A stretch of DNA of 57,929 nt from a virus. Below the pieces are notes generated by a model. The model ran no database searches and had not been told where the DNA came from. It worked only from the letters and a program-made list of their open reading frames with translations. Below, in pieces: positions 2,555-57,450 of the stretch. A program made the translations under genes and the position numbers. The DNA lies in IMG/VR virus record IMGVR_UViG_3300043119_000538, positions 1 through 57,929 of that record; one strand, 5' to 3'. How positions within the stretch are numbered: position 1 is the stretch's first letter; each line of letters begins with the position of its first letter.

Positions 2555-2818
2555 ATGAAAACGTTTGAAACTTATGAATATGTGCATAATTTACAACCTT
2601 GTATGAAACGACCTATTGTTGTTCATGCCAAACAGATACATGAAGAGTTCCGTGTCAATACTCTTGAAGGTAATTACAAGCAAGGTAAAGCTGGTGACTA
2701 TCTCATGATGGGTATTGATGCTGAACTTTATATTTGTGATAAAGCCATCTTTGAAAAGACCTATGACTTTACCGATACTGATAATTCTAAAGCATGGACA
2801 CCATGGGGACACCTTTGA
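2555..2818 (+). CDS. PGDYG-like small phage protein
   Basis: The start at 2555 is chosen because AGAGG lies six bases upstream; in-frame ATGs at 2519 and 2540 lack a ribosome site. The 87-residue product contains HAKQIHEEFRVNTLEG followed by KAGDYLMMGIDAELYICDK and FEKTYD. This resembles the small phage PGDYG-type domain (substrate-like beta fold, function unknown), with Ala in place of the Pro. It starts immediately after the preceding 46-residue gene. The family assignment is tentative. Confidence 0.5.
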   Translation: MKTFETYEYVHNLQPCMKRPIVVHAKQIHEEFRVNTLEGNYKQGKAGDYLMMGIDAELYICDKAIFEKTYDFTDTDNSKAWTPWGHL

Positions 2819-2827
2819 AAACAATGG

Positions 2828-2858
2828 TTGACATATACTAATTAAGGTGTTATAAATA
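2828..2858 (+). promoter_or_regulatory. tmRNA promoter: sigma70 boxes overlapping a late octamer
   Basis: TTGACA at 2828-2833, a 17-base spacer and TATAAA at 2851-2856 form a near-consensus sigma70 promoter. The same -10 region reads TATAAATA (2851-2858), the exact T4 late octamer. The predicted start near 2863 lies just before the acceptor portion of the tmRNA gene. Confidence 0.6.
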
Positions 2859-2862
2859 GACT

Positions 2863-3160
2863 TGTAAATATTGAAGCAACATGGACACATTCTGGACTGC
2901 GGGGCGGTACCGCACGACTCCACCATAGATACACTGCTTATGGTCTTTTGACACGGGGATAGGCTTTACGCCGTCTGGTAGTGTATCTTTGCTGGGGTCG
3001 AAATTAGGATCGACAGGTGTGAAGATAGAGTGGAGTTTACCGGATGGCCTCGTATCGGCTAAATAAACTAAAGGCAAATGAAAATTTCGCACCTGAGGTT
3101 CGCCTAGCGGCTTAATCTCTTGCGGTATGAGCTCCACCGTATAACCTAACGGGCTCACTT
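2863..3160 (+). ncRNA. ssrA: Permuted two-piece tmRNA (ssrA), tag ANENFAPEVRLAA
   Basis: tmRNA rescues stalled ribosomes and adds a degradation tag. Here the acceptor part comes first and ends in the encoded CCA at 2923-2925, and the coding part begins with GGGGTCG at 2994-3000. GGGGTCG pairs perfectly over 7 bp (one G-U) with CGACTCC at 2915-2921 just before the discriminator A and CCA. A T-arm stem TGCGG/CCGCA sits at 2898-2902/2910-2914. The intervening segment is closed by a perfect 9-bp helix, AGATACACT 2927-2935 with AGTGTATCT 2980-2988. A tag reading frame runs 3074-3115 from resume codon GCA: ANENFAPEVRLAA then TAA, ending in LAA like alphaproteobacterial tags. AGTTTA/TAAACT (3034-3039/3064-3069) is a likely pseudoknot 1 stem. 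The circular permutation is typical of Alphaproteobacteria. Outer ends are approximate. Confidence 0.9.
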
Positions 3161-3190: not shown

Positions 3191-3538
3191 ATGAAAAAGA
3201 TTCTTCTTGCAACTACCATCCTTGCAATGACCGCTGTTTCTGCAATGGCTGCTGACCTTGGCTATGGCTTCTCTGTTGGCGCCGACATCAATGCAGAATA
3301 CAATTTGACCGCTGGTGGTGATATTGCATTGACTGCAACTCCAGCATTGTATTACAGTCTTGCTTCTGTCGACTTGACAATCGGTACCGATATTGATTTG
3401 GCTGATGTATATTTTGTCGGTCTTGATCTTGAAGCTTCGTATGATTTGAACGACAGTTTTAATTTGTATGCAAATGTATCTACAGATGAGAATTTTAACT
3501 TCGGTGATGTAGTTATTGGCGCCACTGTTAGTTTCTAA
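3191..3538 (+). CDS. Small secreted beta-rich (outer-membrane-like) protein
   Basis: A 115-residue protein with a textbook signal peptide (MKKILLATTILAMTAVSAMA, cleavage near residue 20-21). The mature part of about 95 residues has alternating hydrophobic/polar strands with many Asp, Tyr and Thr residues and a terminal Phe (GATVSF), the kind of C-terminal signal read by the Bam outer-membrane assembly machinery. It starts behind AAAGGAAA, 30 bases after the tmRNA, and is followed by a strong terminator, so it is probably the last gene of that transcript. Mature length is short for a full beta-barrel; a single small barrel or a periplasmic beta protein is possible. A role in superinfection exclusion or receptor masking would fit but is inference. 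Confidence 0.6.
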   Translation: MKKILLATTILAMTAVSAMAADLGYGFSVGADINAEYNLTAGGDIALTATPALYYSLASVDLTIGTDIDLADVYFVGLDLEASYDLNDSFNLYANVSTDENFNFGDVVIGATVSF

Positions 3539-3840: not shown

Positions 3841-4062
3841 ATGACACTTTCAGCTGAAATGATCCTAAAAGAAGTAGAACAATATACAAATAATGAAGTC
3901 AGTCTTATTGATGCTTTAGTACATTTCTCTGAAAAACATGATATTGAAATTGAATTGATTGGTGAAATTGTAAGACGTTCTGTTGTATTAAAAGCAAAAG
4001 TTCGTAATGATGCAGAACGTCTTAACTTATTAGAAGAAAAAACGGCACAACTTCCAGTATGA
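3841..4062 (+). CDS. 33: gp33-like late promoter transcription co-activator
   Basis: A 73-residue protein. In T4, gp33 binds the RNA polymerase beta flap and, with sigma factor gp55 and sliding clamp gp45, activates late promoters. Here the central DALVHFSEKHDIEIELIGEI and the C-terminal LKAKVRNDAERLNLLE followed by TAQLPV match the short gp33 of marine T4-like phages (T4 gp33 itself is longer). Its stop overlaps the gp59 start (ATGA), and the order 33-59-32 is the same as in T4, which supports the call. It explains the many TATAAATA late promoters in the window. Confidence 0.75.
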   Translation: MTLSAEMILKEVEQYTNNEVSLIDALVHFSEKHDIEIELIGEIVRRSVVLKAKVRNDAERLNLLEEKTAQLPV

Positions 4063-4649
4063 GTATATATTCAACAAAAGCTGCATATGATCTGTATGTG
4101 TACTATTTGGCTTTAAAGAAACACTTTACCACTGATTATGATTTTTTCAAATACAATGGTAAAGTGAGAGCATCACAAGATGCCTTTGAGAATAGAAAAG
4201 ACAAGTTCTTTTTCTATAAACTATCAAAACGATCTGATTCTCAAAGTTATCTTTTAGCAAATATCATTCATAATCCTAAATTATGGATAGGTGATCTTGG
4301 TAATGGTAATGGTGAAACTATCTACAATGATTGGAAAAAAGTTCAGCAATCACTGATGTATACTTTCCAATCTGATATAAATAACATGGATGGAGATTTT
4401 GATTCCAATGTTCTTACAAAGGACGGTCAACATCCACCACTGATCCGAATGTACTTGACAAAACAAATACATTCTGAAACCTTGATTATGATAAACGACG
4501 TGATAAATATTTTTGATTATTGGGATAAGAAATTGGTTGACAAAATAATATGGCCTGATATAAAGAGAACATGTGTCAAATATAGACCATTCTTATCATT
4601 CGATAAGGCAAAAATTAAAACTACTATAATCGCAACATTTCGCAAATAA
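4059..4649 (+). CDS. 59: gp59-like replicative helicase loader
   Basis: A 196-residue protein close to T4 gp59 in length (217). gp59 binds fork DNA and gp32 and loads the gp41 helicase. The N-terminus carries the diagnostic LKKHFTTDYDFFKYNGKVRA and later KDKFFFYKLSKR. The protein is rich in Lys, Phe and Tyr, as expected for a DNA- and protein-binding adaptor. The start overlaps the gp33 stop by four bases, implying translational coupling, and gp32 follows after 21 bases. Confidence 0.9.
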   Translation: MSIYSTKAAYDLYVYYLALKKHFTTDYDFFKYNGKVRASQDAFENRKDKFFFYKLSKRSDSQSYLLANIIHNPKLWIGDLGNGNGETIYNDWKKVQQSLMYTFQSDINNMDGDFDSNVLTKDGQHPPLIRMYLTKQIHSETLIMINDVINIFDYWDKKLVDKIIWPDIKRTCVKYRPFLSFDKAKIKTTIIATFRK

Positions 4650-4670: not shown

Positions 4671-5585
4671 ATGGTTAATTTCGCAGACCTTAAGAAAAAC
4701 AGTTCATCGTCATTTGATAAATTGAATAATCAATTGAAATCAATGGGCAAGCCGAACTATTCTAATGACGAAGATAAATATTGGAAACCAATCGTTGATA
4801 AGGCTGGCAATGGTTTTGCCGTCCTTCGTTTCCTCCCTCCTCCAGTAAATGAAGAAATGCCATTTGTGCGCCTATGGGATCATGGATTCCAGGGACCAAC
4901 TGGTAAATGGTATATTGAGAAATCACTTACAACTCTTGGAATGCCTGATCCAGTTTCTGAACATAACTCAGAACTTTGGGCAACAGGTATTGAAGCAAAC
5001 AAAGAGATTGTTCGTAAACAAAAGCGTCGTGAGTCATATATTGCAAACGTCTATATCGTACGTGATCCAGCAAATCCTTCTAATGAAGGCAAAGTTTTCC
5101 TATACAAGTTTGGTAAGAAAATCTTTGAAAAACTCAATGACCTTATGAATCCACAATTTGAAGGTGAAGCAAAGGTTAACCCTTTCGATCTATGGAAAGG
5201 TGCTAACTTTCAACTTAAAATTCGTAAGTATGAAGGTTATCAGAACTATGACAAATCAGATTTTGCCCCAGCAGGTCCTTTGTTGGAAGATGATGATCGC
5301 CTAGAGGAAATCTGGAAATCAGAAAATTCTCTAAAGGATATTGTCGATCCTAAAAACTTCAAATCATATGAAGAACTCAAGACCAAATTGTATAGCACAC
5401 TTGGTCTTGACGGTAGCAAACGTGCACCCACATCCACTGCTGCTGAGGACGATGATGAGGTGATGGACTACACTCCTAAGTTTAAGGAACGTTCTGCTCC
5501 TGCTATGAGTGAAGCTTCATCGCCTTCTATTGATGAGGATGATGACGACAGTCTATCATTCTTCAAGAACCTTGCTGATGACTAA
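4671..5585 (+). CDS. 32: gp32 single-stranded DNA-binding protein (zinc-less)
   Basis: A 304-residue homologue of T4 gp32, which coats ssDNA in replication, recombination and repair. The core is clear: FRWDHGF-type region LWDHGFQGPTGKWYIE, NVYIVRDPANPSNEGKVFLY, KFGKKIFEKLNDLMNP and PFDLWKGANFQLKIRKYEGY. The acidic C-terminus (IDEDDDDSLSFFKNLADD) is the protein-interaction tail. The zinc-binding cysteines of T4 gp32 are absent; the protein has no cysteine at all. The ribosome site is AAAGGA. A strong terminator follows. Confidence 0.95.
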   Translation: MVNFADLKKNSSSSFDKLNNQLKSMGKPNYSNDEDKYWKPIVDKAGNGFAVLRFLPPPVNEEMPFVRLWDHGFQGPTGKWYIEKSLTTLGMPDPVSEHNSELWATGIEANKEIVRKQKRRESYIANVYIVRDPANPSNEGKVFLYKFGKKIFEKLNDLMNPQFEGEAKVNPFDLWKGANFQLKIRKYEGYQNYDKSDFAPAGPLLEDDDRLEEIWKSENSLKDIVDPKNFKSYEELKTKLYSTLGLDGSKRAPTSTAAEDDDEVMDYTPKFKERSAPAMSEASSPSIDEDDDDSLSFFKNLADD

Positions 5586-5643: not shown

Positions 5644-7038
5644 TTACCGATTACCACCAAGCATCTGTGTGTATAACGATGCAGACACATTTTTTGTTTG
5701 ATTTACAATGGTGGTCTGTTGGTTATTAGAGTTCACTACAGATGATGCTGGTGCTGCAGGCGGTGCAATAATAATAGGTGCTGCTTGTGGTTGTGCAAGG
5801 GTTTTATCAGGTACTGTTGTTGGTGCCATAGCCGTTTTAAATGCTGTCATTCTATTTGGAGCTGCAGCTATTGTTTTATTAGGCGTTTCATCAATTGATG
5901 CCAACATATATTTACGAAATGCCGGTGTAATATCAAGATTAAACTTATCTTCCTCAGCGGCAAATCCTCTTCCTGTTATGCTATTAAGTGGATCTGTGAT
6001 TAAACCTTGAACAAACATATCAATTGCGCCAGGAATAGATTCAAGAAGACCTTGACGAATTCTTTGTGTGGCATCAAGTCCGGCATCTTTTAATTCTTGA
6101 TCAAAATAACCCATACCACCTGATAATAATGCTCCAAGTGCGCCAGGTACTTTGGACATTTTTGGTGGCTTAACTATACCTTTTGTTGGTGCATCTGATA
6201 TTTTAGGATATATTTTAGGTGCGGCTTCAGTGGTAACACGCATATCTTGTGTTAATTTGAATGGTTCTAACCCAGCATTCATTGGTGGCATTGGTTTGAG
6301 TGTTGGTTTTTTATCACCGAGCGCTGCAAGATGCTCATCTACAGTTAAGTATTTTGTAGATAGTTTTGGTTTTGGCACTGTATTCAGATCATCAATTGAT
6401 GCAAGAAGTTTATCTTTAGCAAATGCTGCAAGACGCTCATCTACAGTTAAGTATTTTGTTGATGTTTTTGGTTTGGATGATGCTTGCTCAGCAAGTGTGG
6501 CAAGACGCTTATCTTCGGCAATTGCTGCAAGACGCTCATCTACAGTTAAGTATTTTGTCGATGTTTTTGGTTTTGTGTCATTAACATTCAGTCGGTCATT
6601 TCCAGGTGCTCCCTTTAATTTGTCAGCGCCACCTCCACCTCTAAGTAACATTCCTGCTGCAGCTTGTAATCCTAAAGGTCCAAGTAATGACATAAGTCCT
6701 GCTGATCCAGCAGCTGCTAATACCGAACCTAAACTAGCAGATTTACTTTCTTCTTCATCATTATCTTTTTTACCTTTTTTTGATGGCGTTGCAGCACTAG
6801 ATACATCTTCTCTTCTGGCCTTTCCAAGCATTGCTTCTTGATAACCAACCATTTTTTTAAGATAAACAGCTTGTTCTTTGCCAATCATTTTAAGTTCATT
6901 GATACCACTTTCAAGTTTTGAACCAGCAGCATAATCTACCATAAGCCCAGTTTTATCTGAACCACCATTTGAACTAATTGCATTCATAATATCTTGAATC
7001 TTAGATATATCAGTTGGTTTGCTGGTTACTTCTACCAT
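5644..7038 (-). CDS. Candidate tape-measure / baseplate hub protein with internal repeats
   Basis: A 464-residue protein. The N-terminal third is helical, with a KK/EE-rich linker (residues about 75-100). A long hydrophobic Ala/Gly/Leu segment follows (SVLAAAGSAGLMSLLGPLGL onward, about 105-135). Three copies of KPKTSTKYLTVDERLAA (third degenerate) occupy about 155-245. The C-terminus is Pro/Ala/Gln-rich. It starts directly after the stop of the gp51-like ORF, in the place where tail operons put the tape measure behind the frameshifted chaperone pair. No sequence similarity to T4 gp29 is evident to me, so hub or tape-measure function is inferred from position, hydrophobic segment and repeats. 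Confidence 0.5.
   Translation of the reverse strand: MVEVTSKPTDISKIQDIMNAISSNGGSDKTGLMVDYAAGSKLESGINELKMIGKEQAVYLKKMVGYQEAMLGKARREDVSSAATPSKKGKKDNDEEESKSASLGSVLAAAGSAGLMSLLGPLGLQAAAGMLLRGGGGADKLKGAPGNDRLNVNDTKPKTSTKYLTVDERLAAIAEDKRLATLAEQASSKPKTSTKYLTVDERLAAFAKDKLLASIDDLNTVPKPKLSTKYLTVDEHLAALGDKKPTLKPMPPMNAGLEPFKLTQDMRVTTEAAPKIYPKISDAPTKGIVKPPKMSKVPGALGALLSGGMGYFDQELKDAGLDATQRIRQGLLESIPGAIDMFVQGLITDPLNSITGRGFAAEEDKFNLDITPAFRKYMLASIDETPNKTIAAAPNRMTAFKTAMAPTTVPDKTLAQPQAAPIIIAPPAAPASSVVNSNNQQTTIVNQTKNVSASLYTQMLGGNR
6323..6575 (-). repeat. Three direct coding repeats in the tape-measure candidate
   Basis: Near-identical blocks at about 6323-6366, 6425-6472 and 6527-6575, each encoding KPK-S/T-STKYLTVDE-LAA. 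The two most upstream in the coding direction are almost identical; the third has H for R and L for T changes. Spacing is about 100 bases. The open frame and irregular spacing mark them as coding repeats, not CRISPR. Confidence 0.85.
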
Positions 7039-7194
7039 TTAGTTATCTTTCTCTATGTGGTCTGTTAACATATGTATGTACAATTCTAATTCATATGGTA
7101 TCATGTTTTCAATATCACTTAATGCATATCTATGAATGGTTACCAATTTAAAAATATTTGTATATAGGTGAATCAAAGAAGTATGACTCACCAT
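7039..7194 (-). CDS. 51: gp51-like C-terminal extension, reached by frameshift from gp26
   Basis: A 51-codon open frame on the minus strand, from ATG (7194) to TAA (7039-7041). Its product contains HRYALSDIENMIPYELELYI, the conserved tail of marine T4-like gp26/gp51 baseplate hub assembly proteins (family pattern SLTELENMIPWERDIYV). There is no ribosome site before the ATG. The conserved block continues upstream in this frame across the gp26 stop (FFYLMVSHTSLIHLY), so a -1 slip at 7200-7206 would give a 276-residue gp26-gp51 fusion. Termination-reinitiation at the overlapping TAATG is the alternative. The next gene starts directly after its stop. Confidence 0.75.
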   Translation of the reverse strand: MVSHTSLIHLYTNIFKLVTIHRYALSDIENMIPYELELYIHMLTDHIEKDN

Positions 7195-7868
7195 TAAGTA
7201 AAAAAATTACTCAATCCCTCCAATACAAAAGTTTTATCAACACCAGTTTTATCTTTATATGGTATTTCAACTTTAAGTACTGGTATTGTTTTGAAAAAAT
7301 CTTTGATTGAATCAATATTCTTTGGATTTAATTCTTCAATAAATTTTTCAATTTCTTCTTTAGTATATTCAGATAACTTATAAACCTTTTCGCCGTCATT
7401 ACTGACAAGAACATCAATACAATTAATAACAAGATCTTCACCACTATTAATCTTATCAATTGTAGGGTATTTCATAATTAAAGTATAATGATTATCAAGA
7501 TCAATCTTTTTACTATGCTTTTCATTCTGAATAAGTTTTATATTATTAATATCAAGTTTCAAAGTAACTGTTTCATCAGTTTCATTATCAATGATATTAA
7601 ATTCAATTTCATTATTAACAGATTTTGCTCGAATATTTAACATAATATATTCAAGATCAAACATTGGAATTTCATTTACATCAAGATCATACACACAGTT
7701 TGTAATGATCTGCTTAATAGCCAATATTGTTTGGTCTATATCATCACTCTCTTGTGCTACTAATAAGATCTTTTCTTCACGTACATTATACGGTCTATAT
7801 TTTACTTTTTTACCACTTGATGGAACTGTCAATTCAAATAGTGGTAGTTCAATTTTTGGTAAACTCAT
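7194..7868 (-). CDS. 26: gp26 baseplate hub assembly protein
   Basis: A 224-residue protein of the T4 baseplate protein family (PF12322 type), near T4 gp26 in length (208). It begins MSLPKIELPLFELTVPSSGK, then KVKYRPYNVREEKILLVAQE and IPMFDLEYIMLNIRAKSV, the family's typical motifs. It is thought to act in baseplate hub assembly, comparable to tail assembly chaperones of other phages. Its last codons run through T TTT TTT before the in-frame TAA, a slippery heptamer that would fuse it to the gp51-like frame. It lies in the late minus-strand operon starting near 9682. Confidence 0.88.
   Translation of the reverse strand: MSLPKIELPLFELTVPSSGKKVKYRPYNVREEKILLVAQESDDIDQTILAIKQIITNCVYDLDVNEIPMFDLEYIMLNIRAKSVNNEIEFNIIDNETDETVTLKLDINNIKLIQNEKHSKKIDLDNHYTLIMKYPTIDKINSGEDLVINCIDVLVSNDGEKVYKLSEYTKEEIEKFIEELNPKNIDSIKDFFKTIPVLKVEIPYKDKTGVDKTFVLEGLSNFFT
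7200..7206 (-). promoter_or_regulatory. Putative -1 programmed frameshift site T_TTT_TTT
   Basis: On the minus strand gp26 reads AAT TTT TTT ACT TAA. The heptamer T TTT TTT fits X XXY YYZ with X = Y = T in the correct phase, allowing both tRNAs to re-pair after a -1 slip. The new frame reads TAC TTA ATG GTG and gives conserved gp51-like residues. The slip is two codons before the gp26 stop, a favourable spacing. Confidence 0.7.
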
Positions 7869-8590: not shown

Positions 8591-9190
8591 TTAACGACCT
8601 CTGATAATTTTGACTGAATCTGCCCAAACTTTTTGATTCGCCGCTTTTTGGAATCTTGATAAGGGAAGAAAAAGTGCTACGTCCCACTCTGCAGGAAATA
8701 TGTATAAGAATTTACTTGTCAGATGATCGCTTAAATAATGCTTTACTGTTGGTTTAAAGTATTTAAATTGCGCAGCACCATTTAATAAATCATAATTCAA
8801 CTTTAACTTTGTTGTATCATTGTACAGTGTATTGTTTGTAATGGAATAAAGGCCATCCATTAACTTAGCTCTGTAAGGCAATGGAAGATAGTGCATATTC
8901 ATACCAAGAAATCCACCTGGAACTTTTCTGAATGGAAATACAAGAGGAAATCTATCCCAATATGGCAAAGTATCCTTGTGCTTTGGGTTATAGGTAAACA
9001 TATACATCTGACCAATTCTAGGAGAACTAGTAAAACGAGTTGCATCACTACCTTTAAGCAGTGATGTTTCGTTGATCTTGCCTTGCTGTTGAGCGGTGTT
9101 ACGATACCAATCACGTGCTTCTTGAGTACGAGCAGGAATGTTTCCTTCTCGAATACCCTTTGATAATATAGTATCGAATAGTATTGCCAT
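8591..9190 (-). CDS. Conserved T4-like virion-associated protein, function unknown
   Basis: A 199-residue protein with SPRIGQMYMFTYNPKHKDTL, PYWDRFPLVFPF, GGFLGMNMHYLPLPYRAKLM and KLKLNYDLLNGA. This pattern is common in marine T4-like phages, where the gene usually lies near gp4 and baseplate genes. I do not know an experimentally assigned role. It begins at the stop codon of gp4 (TAATG overlap), so translation is coupled to gp4, and it belongs to the minus-strand late operon. Probably a structural or morphogenesis factor. Confidence 0.6.
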   Translation of the reverse strand: MAILFDTILSKGIREGNIPARTQEARDWYRNTAQQQGKINETSLLKGSDATRFTSSPRIGQMYMFTYNPKHKDTLPYWDRFPLVFPFRKVPGGFLGMNMHYLPLPYRAKLMDGLYSITNNTLYNDTTKLKLNYDLLNGAAQFKYFKPTVKHYLSDHLTSKFLYIFPAEWDVALFLPLSRFQKAANQKVWADSVKIIRGR

Positions 9191-9648
9191 TACTTGATTC
9201 CTAGTTCTATTTCCGTCATAATTCGAAAAATCCAGCCACGATCCTTGCAGACTTCCTCAGCGGCCTTCCACTTTGCCATATTCACGCCGTAAGTCATAAC
9301 TTCATTGATATATTTTTTATTCAACATTCCCTTGGGTGTTAACTTTGTACTTGGATTCGGTGCTATTGTCTGTGCTTTTGGTTTCACTTCAATTAGTATC
9401 TTTTCTTTTTTACCATCTCTATTTATTTGCTCTACAAAAAAGTCTGGAAAGTATCTATGCATTCTTCCGTCAACTGGACTTTCATATGGTATCACAATCT
9501 CTTCCGAGCCCCATTTAATAACATTCGGATGAGAATCCAAATATGCCATTAACTTAAGTTCCCACGATGATCTATAAATAATATTTGTAGGATCACCCTT
9601 ATACTTAGAAGGATTCTTCGGTTTAAATTTGCCTTGATACGCTGCCAT
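9190..9648 (-). CDS. 4: gp4 head completion protein (nuclease-like)
   Basis: A 152-residue protein matching T4 gp4 (also called gp50; 150 aa), which acts at head completion before tail joining. Motifs: KYKGDPTNIIYRSSWELKLM, AYLDSHPNVIKWGSEEIVIP, YFPDFFVEQ and ILIEVKPKAQT. The PDF...EVKPK arrangement resembles the active site of PD-(D/E)XK-type nucleases (Asp in PDF, Glu and Lys in EVK). It is the first gene of the minus-strand operon, 34 bases from a minus-strand late octamer. Confidence 0.92.
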   Translation of the reverse strand: MAAYQGKFKPKNPSKYKGDPTNIIYRSSWELKLMAYLDSHPNVIKWGSEEIVIPYESPVDGRMHRYFPDFFVEQINRDGKKEKILIEVKPKAQTIAPNPSTKLTPKGMLNKKYINEVMTYGVNMAKWKAAEEVCKDRGWIFRIMTEIELGIK

Positions 9649-56198: not shown

Positions 56199-57450
56199 GG
56201 ACATCATCAAAGAAGCTACATTAGAGCAATTGCCACGTCGTACCAAAGCTTTTGTTGATAAACATGTTGTGCAAAAAACTGATTATCCAGTTGATGCTGA
56301 AGATCAATTTACTGCTAAGAAGCTTAAAAAAGATAAGACAAAACTTGCCTCATTCCATAATGGTGAGGATGCTTCTGTATATGAAGAAGTTGATCTTGAT
56401 GAAGGTGTTTCAAATCTTTCAGATGCAAGACTTAAGTTTCATGTTTTAAATAATATTCCTCATGGTAGTTATGGCAAAAAAGAAATGTCAGCAGAACATC
56501 TTCGTCGCAAAAAGACCGGTGGTCCTGCATATAATGCTGTTAAACCATCTATGAATGAAGAAGTTGATCTTGATGAAGCAAAGACTGATATTTACCACAA
56601 GCATATGTTAAAAGCACTTGGTAAAACAAGATTGCCAAAAGACCATGGTTACACATCATCAATCGCAAACAATGGTGATTTTGTTGTTCGTAAAGGTAGT
56701 GAAGTTGCTGGTCGTATCCCAAAAGGTGAACATGATCTAAAAGAAGCTTCAATGTCTCCAACAGATATGAAGCAACGTGAAGATATTGTTAAGGGTATGA
56801 AAGACAAGACTCAAGACTTTAAGGATCGTTATGGTTCTAAGTGGAAGTCTGTCATGTATGCTACTGCTACTAAGGCTGCAATGAAAGAAGAAGCAGAACA
56901 AATTGACGAGTTGTCAAAAAAGACACTTGGCTCTTATGTAAAAAAAGCGGCTGGAGATTTAGATTTTAACGCAAGAAGAGACGGCAAAATTTTGGCTGGT
57001 CAAGGAAAAAGCACCGATAAATATTTTAATAAAGCATACAGTAGAAAAAGAGGCATCGGTCTAGCTGCTGACAAATTGGCAAAAGAAGAAGCAGAACAAA
57101 TTGATGAAGTTTCAGCAACCACACTTAGCAAATATTCAACCAAAGCTGCTCGCCAAGGTGATGATCGTCTAGCTGGTCAAAAGATGGCAGATGAAAAAAT
57201 TCGTAAACAGCAAGGCAAATCATCAACGGCTAAAGTGGCTGCTGAATCAGTCGACCTTGATGAAGCATTCAAAGCAGGTGCAATGAAACTCAATGATGGA
57301 TCATCTGTAACTCTTACTAATGAGTCATCAAATTCTTTGAACAATCTATTCAATCAGTTGAGTTCATCAAATAAAACTAAAATGGAACAGAGATTAATGT
57401 CTGGTTCAAAAGGCTTTAATGAAATTCTAGCATTTGCAAAGGAAGTATAA
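56185..57450 (+). CDS. Prohead core / internal head protein with repeats
   Basis: A 421-residue Lys/Glu-rich protein starting inside gp67 (MKTFKDIIKEATLEQLPRRT). It has recurring units: EEVDLDEG, EEVDLDEA and AESVDLDEA, and EEAEQIDELSKKTLGSYVKK with EEAEQIDEVSATTLSKYSTK. Each ends in I/L-D-E, compatible with the T4 prohead protease consensus (I/L-x-E). T4-like phages of marine hosts have similar internal head proteins. Probably a scaffold or packaged internal protein; the prohead protease gp21 and capsid gp23 are beyond the window. Confidence 0.7.
   Translation: MKTFKDIIKEATLEQLPRRTKAFVDKHVVQKTDYPVDAEDQFTAKKLKKDKTKLASFHNGEDASVYEEVDLDEGVSNLSDARLKFHVLNNIPHGSYGKKEMSAEHLRRKKTGGPAYNAVKPSMNEEVDLDEAKTDIYHKHMLKALGKTRLPKDHGYTSSIANNGDFVVRKGSEVAGRIPKGEHDLKEASMSPTDMKQREDIVKGMKDKTQDFKDRYGSKWKSVMYATATKAAMKEEAEQIDELSKKTLGSYVKKAAGDLDFNARRDGKILAGQGKSTDKYFNKAYSRKRGIGLAADKLAKEEAEQIDEVSATTLSKYSTKAARQGDDRLAGQKMADEKIRKQQGKSSTAKVAAESVDLDEAFKAGAMKLNDGSSVTLTNESSNSLNNLFNQLSSSNKTKMEQRLMSGSKGFNEILAFAKEV

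Follow-up and report, generated by a model that had tools for sequence, protein, structure and literature searches.

Two-piece tmRNAs encoded by phages were described in 2022 from the OM43 phage Melnitz and the Pelagibacter phage Mosig, which are T4-like marine myophages and carry, as does the locus presented in this study, a permuted tmRNA of the alphaproteobacterial type (PMC9004378). In the same work, 53 two-piece cases were called by ARAGORN among phage genomes, 50 of which were marine or aquatic, and a two-piece tmRNA was present in 17 of 47 Melnitz-like contigs (PMC9004378). The tmRNA database holds 79 phage sequences (PMC11915505), and mycobacteriophages (Bxz1, Wildcat, and others; listed in PMC4131195) and Bacillus phage G also have phage-encoded tmRNAs. 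The stretch of DNA analyzed here (the window) comprises 57,929 bases and is a linear virus record, a fragment of metagenomic origin. The tmRNAs of the mycobacteriophages and Bacillus phage G are of the one-piece form, unlike the tmRNA of the window, which belongs to the already known two-piece phage tmRNAs. The novelty claimed when a permuted copy in a T4-like phage was first noticed in the window was overstated, since two-piece tmRNAs of marine and aquatic phages, T4-like pelagimyophages and Melnitz among them, had been published in 2022 (PMC9004378).

The analysis confirms that positions 2864 to 3159 of the window hold a tmRNA gene that is complete, circularly permuted, and of the alphaproteobacterial type. 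The Rfam covariance model RF04321 matches at 2864-3115 with 99.6 bits (E = 3e-18, cut-off 47), and RF01849, the alphaproteobacterial type, matches at 2810-3159 over the full model from 1 to 355 with 86.7 bits (E = 4e-22, cut-off 50). These two tmRNA families are the only Rfam families above cut-off in the window, and the permuted tmRNA with the tag ANENFAPEVRLAA is the sole gene called by ARAGORN over its whole length. The three methods thus agree with the sequence-only reading, which had proposed a phage-encoded permuted tmRNA with an intact tag and had suggested the covariance search, and the scores lie far above both cut-offs. Bacterial tmRNAs mostly outscore the window RNA on RF04321 (roughly 120-165 versus 99.6 bits), so the latter has diverged and may be less active.

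The features of the locus are listed in Table 1. The CCA-bearing acceptor, the 68-nt segment, the 9-bp helix, the GGGGTCG strand, and the 13-codon tag with its LAA end all lie where the sequence-only reading had placed them, and the pairing across the break that it had claimed is complete; i.e., all seven pairs of the CGACUCC/GGGGUCG acceptor stem are formed. The stem includes a G3-U70 pair, which is the pair recognized by alanyl-tRNA synthetase. The coding piece holds a region that is able to form a PK1-like pseudoknot. Folded as a single strand, the precursor shows the acceptor stem with the hairpin of the intervening segment stacked on it, and P2 and the pseudoknot are absent from this fold. 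No nested protein gene was found in the intervening segment of the window itself.

Table 1. Features of the tmRNA locus in the window.
Feature	Position	Strand	Description
Sigma70-like promoter (predicted)	2828..2858	+	TTGACA 2828-2833, 17-nt spacer, TATAAA 2851-2856; from sequence and enrichment in homologues
T4 late-promoter motif	2851-2858	+	TATAAATA; overlaps the -10 of the sigma70-like promoter
Acceptor piece	2864..2925	+	P2 5' strand, T-arm TGCGG-GGCGGTA-CCGCA, 3' acceptor strand CGACTCC, encoded ACCA
Encoded ACCA	2922-2925	+	End of the acceptor piece
Intervening transcribed segment	2926..2993	+	68 nt; stable hairpin stacked on the acceptor stem
Closing helix of the intervening segment	2927-2935 / 2980-2988		Perfect 9 bp, AGATACACT/AGTGTATCT
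Coding piece	2994..3159	+	GGGGTCG as 5' strand of the acceptor stem; D-loop-like segment; 3' strand of P2; tag frame; 3' portion with an approximate end from the RF01849 model
Tag frame	3074..3115	+	ANENFAPEVRLAA, 13 codons; resume codon GCA, stop TAA
Small secreted protein	3191..3538	+	Signal-peptide-like start; downstream neighbor of the tmRNA
gp33, late transcription coactivator	3841..4062	+	PF16805, phrog_25387; opens the gp33-gp59-gp32 cluster by which the locus is recognized
gp59, DNA helicase loader	4059..4649	+	phrog_269, E = 1e-55
gp32, single-strand DNA-binding protein	4671..5585	+	phrog_224, E = 7e-112

The tmRNA begins where transcription from the sigma70-like promoter is predicted to start, at approximately 2862-2864. 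This promoter is missed by the promoter scanner because its -10 ends in A, and it was hence scored separately. Of 29 phage homologues, 14 have a sequence ahead of the tmRNA that matches at least 10/12 consensus positions, compared with 0.9 expected by chance, and the sigma70-like promoters of the homologues mostly lie at a similar distance from the tmRNA. The late-promoter motif is likewise present upstream of the tmRNA in 10 of the 29 (0.4 expected). No terminator-like site was found between the coding piece and the next gene, so processing probably defines the 3' end of the tmRNA, and transcription may continue into the gene for the secreted protein at 3191.

The contig is that of a T4-like myovirus, as had been assigned from the sequence; it carries the T4 core genes for the portal (phrog_213, E = 9e-204), terminase, sheath, tube, and baseplate in addition to gp32, gp59, and gp33. 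Among named phages, the portal protein is nearest to those of phiM12/phiN3, which infect Sinorhizobium, and of Stenotrophomonas phage DLP_6 (57-58% identity). Judged by the tmRNA type and the nearest phages, the host is likely alphaproteobacterial; host assignment by tmRNA type is fallible, because the alphaproteobacterial tmRNA of Melnitz sits in a phage of a gammaproteobacterium (PMC9004378). Upstream sequence of 6 kb or more was available for 28 gp32 loci; 14 of these have a tmRNA upstream of gp32 on the same strand, and the other half of these comparable relatives has no tmRNA near gp32, which indicates that the gene is dispensable. We found no report in the open-licence literature of the fixed gp33-gp59-gp32 locus in the wider group or of the promoter pattern. 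Elsewhere on the contig, a protein with a TnsA-like endonuclease N-terminal domain (PF08722, E = 7e-25) is encoded on the minus strand at 9190-9648 amid the T4-like structural genes. When window positions 56382-56701 are set beside positions 6800-7661 of the related contig L009, the stretch at approximately 56383-56560 matches L009 in several places, a hint that a module is repeated downstream of the portal gene.

The arrangement of the window resembles that of Melnitz, in which ssrA lies directly upstream of the late transcription coactivator (PMC9004378), as the window tmRNA lies upstream of gp33. On the other hand, a glutamine riboswitch is predicted on the Melnitz ssrA (PMC9004378), whereas Rfam gives only the tmRNA in the window. 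Pelagibacter phage HTVC008M (KC465899.1, 145161-145370) also has a permuted tmRNA upstream of gp33 and gp59; its sequence has strongly diverged from that of the window, and its tag is ANFNEYALAA. This tmRNA is unannotated in the public record KC465899.1, as is a permuted tmRNA with the tag ANDDSFAPMAIAA in DLP_6 (KU682439.2, 102838-103059). The tmRNAs of the roseophage type (DSS3P8, DSS3_MAL1, RcXuper, MD18, and vB_RpoS-V10) are permuted as well, and their acceptor piece is 86-89% identical over short stretches, but they belong to another phage group and another locus; the tag of RcXuper is ANENFAPMEMRLAA. The tmRNA of alphaproteobacterial hosts (RF01849, Caulobacter type) shares with the window the order of acceptor, intervening segment, and coding piece and the AN(D/E)N... 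tag, and the T-loop GGCGGTA is also found in 53 of the 97 alphaproteobacterial hosts sampled. Compared with these hosts, the window RNA scores lower on the model and clusters with the phage RNAs, and the median length of the intervening segment is 80 nt in phages versus 28 nt in bacteria.

The pairing of the RNA is well preserved among the phages. For the 12 pairs of the TLD in 28 phage homologues, the covariation score was 0.571, whereas shuffles gave 0.115 and slid versions did not exceed 0.077; extraction of the TLD required pairing and so favors structure, the matches themselves having been found independently by ARAGORN or Rfam, and the fraction paired is thus partly built in, which does not apply to the variety of pair types. 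None of the 12 pairs in the acceptor stem and T-stem is lost across the 28 phages, and seven of them show changes on both sides, and G3-U70 is present as a UG pair (columns 26/35) in all 28 phage rows, the window included. The closest relative, contig L089, is approximately 76-87% identical to the window in the tmRNA region; it ends inside the tmRNA gene but still covers the tag, ANENFAPKAYALAA, the frame of which differs in length by 3 nt without being shifted and has synonymous changes in its last two alanine codons. Contig L088, found via its tag, encodes ANDNFAPEVRLAA. Because the frame is kept in L089, the stem covaries strongly among the 28 phages, and many relatives have the gene upstream of gp33-gp59-gp32, the tmRNA gene is, as judged from these comparisons, under selection. 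A gene for SmpB is absent from the 15 phage records searched, 6 of which are complete genomes and for which the controls worked, so the SmpB of the host presumably serves.

Drawing on the anatomy, the pairing and covariation, the conservation of frame and locus, the promoter-like sequence, and the absence of SmpB from the searched records, we consider it very probable that the window encodes a functional, phage-owned two-piece tmRNA that rescues ribosomes during infection, is processed and charged by the host, and tags products for ClpXP-type proteases; the processing, charging, SmpB use, degradation, and benefit are what we infer. The precursor would be transcribed from its own promoter, starting near 2862-2864, and would fold so that the hairpin of the intervening segment stacks on the acceptor stem. 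Removal of this hairpin by tRNA-processing enzymes of the host would give an acceptor RNA of approximately 62 nt and a coding RNA of approximately 165 nt that would stay joined via the acceptor stem and helix P2. After charging by the host alanyl-tRNA synthetase via G3-U70, host SmpB and EF-Tu would bring the tmRNA to ribosomes stalled on truncated mRNA during infection, where translation would resume at GCA, append ANENFAPEVRLAA, and stop at TAA. The LAA end would then mark the product for proteases of the ClpXP type. The phage would most likely benefit because ribosomes are kept free while host and phage mRNAs are cut.

Other explanations of the locus were weighed against ribosome rescue. 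The phage tmRNA could instead outcompete that of the host and thereby change the fate of tagged proteins, either through an altered preference for adaptor or protease or, as the Melnitz authors proposed, through early recycling of host proteins. The tags offer some ground for this replacement: phage tags end in LAA (26/29) or IAA (3/29) and never in VAA, whereas the sampled alphaproteobacterial hosts have LAA in 40 and VAA in 19 of 72 rows, which are not independent of one another, and neither the window tag nor a close variant is encoded by any bacterial genome in the searched collection. However, the phage tags begin with AN(D/E)N... and close with a hydrophobic residue and AA, as is typical of host tags, so the sequence gives no clear sign of a different fate, and early selective degradation of host proteins is without direct support; we regard a replaced tag as an unlikely main role. 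A decoy that titrates SmpB or ribosomes and so inhibits host trans-translation would have a precedent in the TLD-only inhibitor reported to be encoded by mycobacteriophage DS6A (PMC11915505, PMC4131195). That type has no tag frame, whereas in the window RNA the tag frame, stop, and resume codon are intact and are maintained via in-frame changes in relatives, none of which a decoy needs, and this role is very improbable.

The gene might also be a functionless fragment of a host ssrA captured recently, e.g., by imprecise excision, since integration often takes place at tmRNA genes and prophages do contain fragments of the host (PMC9004378). Yet the gene is complete, covarying, and syntenic, and the only host DNA matches span approximately 36 nt (83-86% identity) in 4 of 385 alphaproteobacterial genomes; the plasmid search gave no match. 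A tree was built from 30 sequences of phages and 91 from bacterial genomes, the hosts sampled being alphaproteobacterial only; in it, the window falls among phage rather than bacterial RNAs, on a well-supported branch (98/98) that also holds 24 further phage RNAs and 3 bacterial-genome rows. Both the tree and the direct DNA search indicate that no sampled host was a recent source of the gene; recent host capture was rejected, and a mere passenger is highly improbable. The chance of an assembly artefact or host contamination is negligible: the window is a 58-kb linear metagenomic fragment, but the independent contig L089 has the same junction of tmRNA, secreted protein, gp33, gp59, and gp32, on which ground this explanation was rejected, and in L088 and L169 a homologue of the secreted-protein gene likewise adjoins the tmRNA.

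A working rescue RNA of the phage itself therefore remains the preferred reading, and its origin can be considered further. All phage rows as one clade were not rejected (p-AU 0.63) in a test for which L195 and L198 had been moved to the phage rows once the tree was known. The beta_tmRNA model is matched by several other phages, and no genome among the beta hosts sampled was above the cut-off; since the tree hosts are alphaproteobacterial and some phages have beta-type tmRNAs, a single origin is not claimed. A relaxed scan of bacterial genomes for the tag gave five matches, one of which is L195 (contig PBPT01000016.1, 335 kb), deposited in a Neomarinimicrobiota genome and carrying a permuted tmRNA and a T4-type portal homologue. 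L195 is also one of the three bacterial-genome rows that share the branch of the window. Because of this portal homologue, it is most likely a large phage misbinned into a bacterial genome; L198 looks similar, from its neighboring genes only.

As a broader and tentative proposal, which we hold possible but less than even, the permuted tmRNAs of this phage group may form an old phage-owned lineage, rather than a series of separate captures from hosts, with a fixed locus upstream of gp33-gp59-gp32, dual sigma70/late promoters, phage-specific tag ends, and an intervening segment that would be excised during maturation and houses a protein gene in some members. If this is true, one transcript would give both a ribosome-rescue RNA and a small protein. 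The results confirm that phages own a complete ribosome-rescue RNA. In one T4-like group, the tmRNA gene is bound to a fixed locus, carries its own promoter-like elements, and is maintained as a working RNA, which makes it a testable case for ribosome rescue as a phage need, and cultured relatives (HTVC008M, the roseophages, and DLP_6) exist for experiments.

In some relatives, the intervening segment contains a protein gene. In 16 contigs of one scan (L317-L321, L326-L329, L331-L334, and L336-L338), a conserved 52-codon protein gene lies exactly between the acceptor and coding pieces of a permuted tmRNA (e.g., L327:1495-1653). It has an AAGGA ribosome-binding site, a GTG start, and a stop at the end of the segment, and its copies in L326 and L327 differ at 20 bases, 17 of which are third codon positions. 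If transcribed and translated, such nested genes would represent an unusual gene-within-RNA-gene arrangement. The same 52-codon gene is located just upstream of a complete tmRNA in L322-L325, where the ORF ends at approximately 1656 (1476 in L325), and in L324 and L325 it is flanked by apparent decayed tmRNA ends, suggesting that the gene was moved or duplicated. In the phage tmRNA on the reverse strand of L175, the 165-nt intervening segment contains an AGAGG site and another, distinct ORF (MFKKIKEKIK..., 45 codons). In L097 (= L180) and L107 (= L182), ACTC or ATTA is encoded in place of ACCA, and the CCA end of these tmRNAs would thus need to be added enzymatically.
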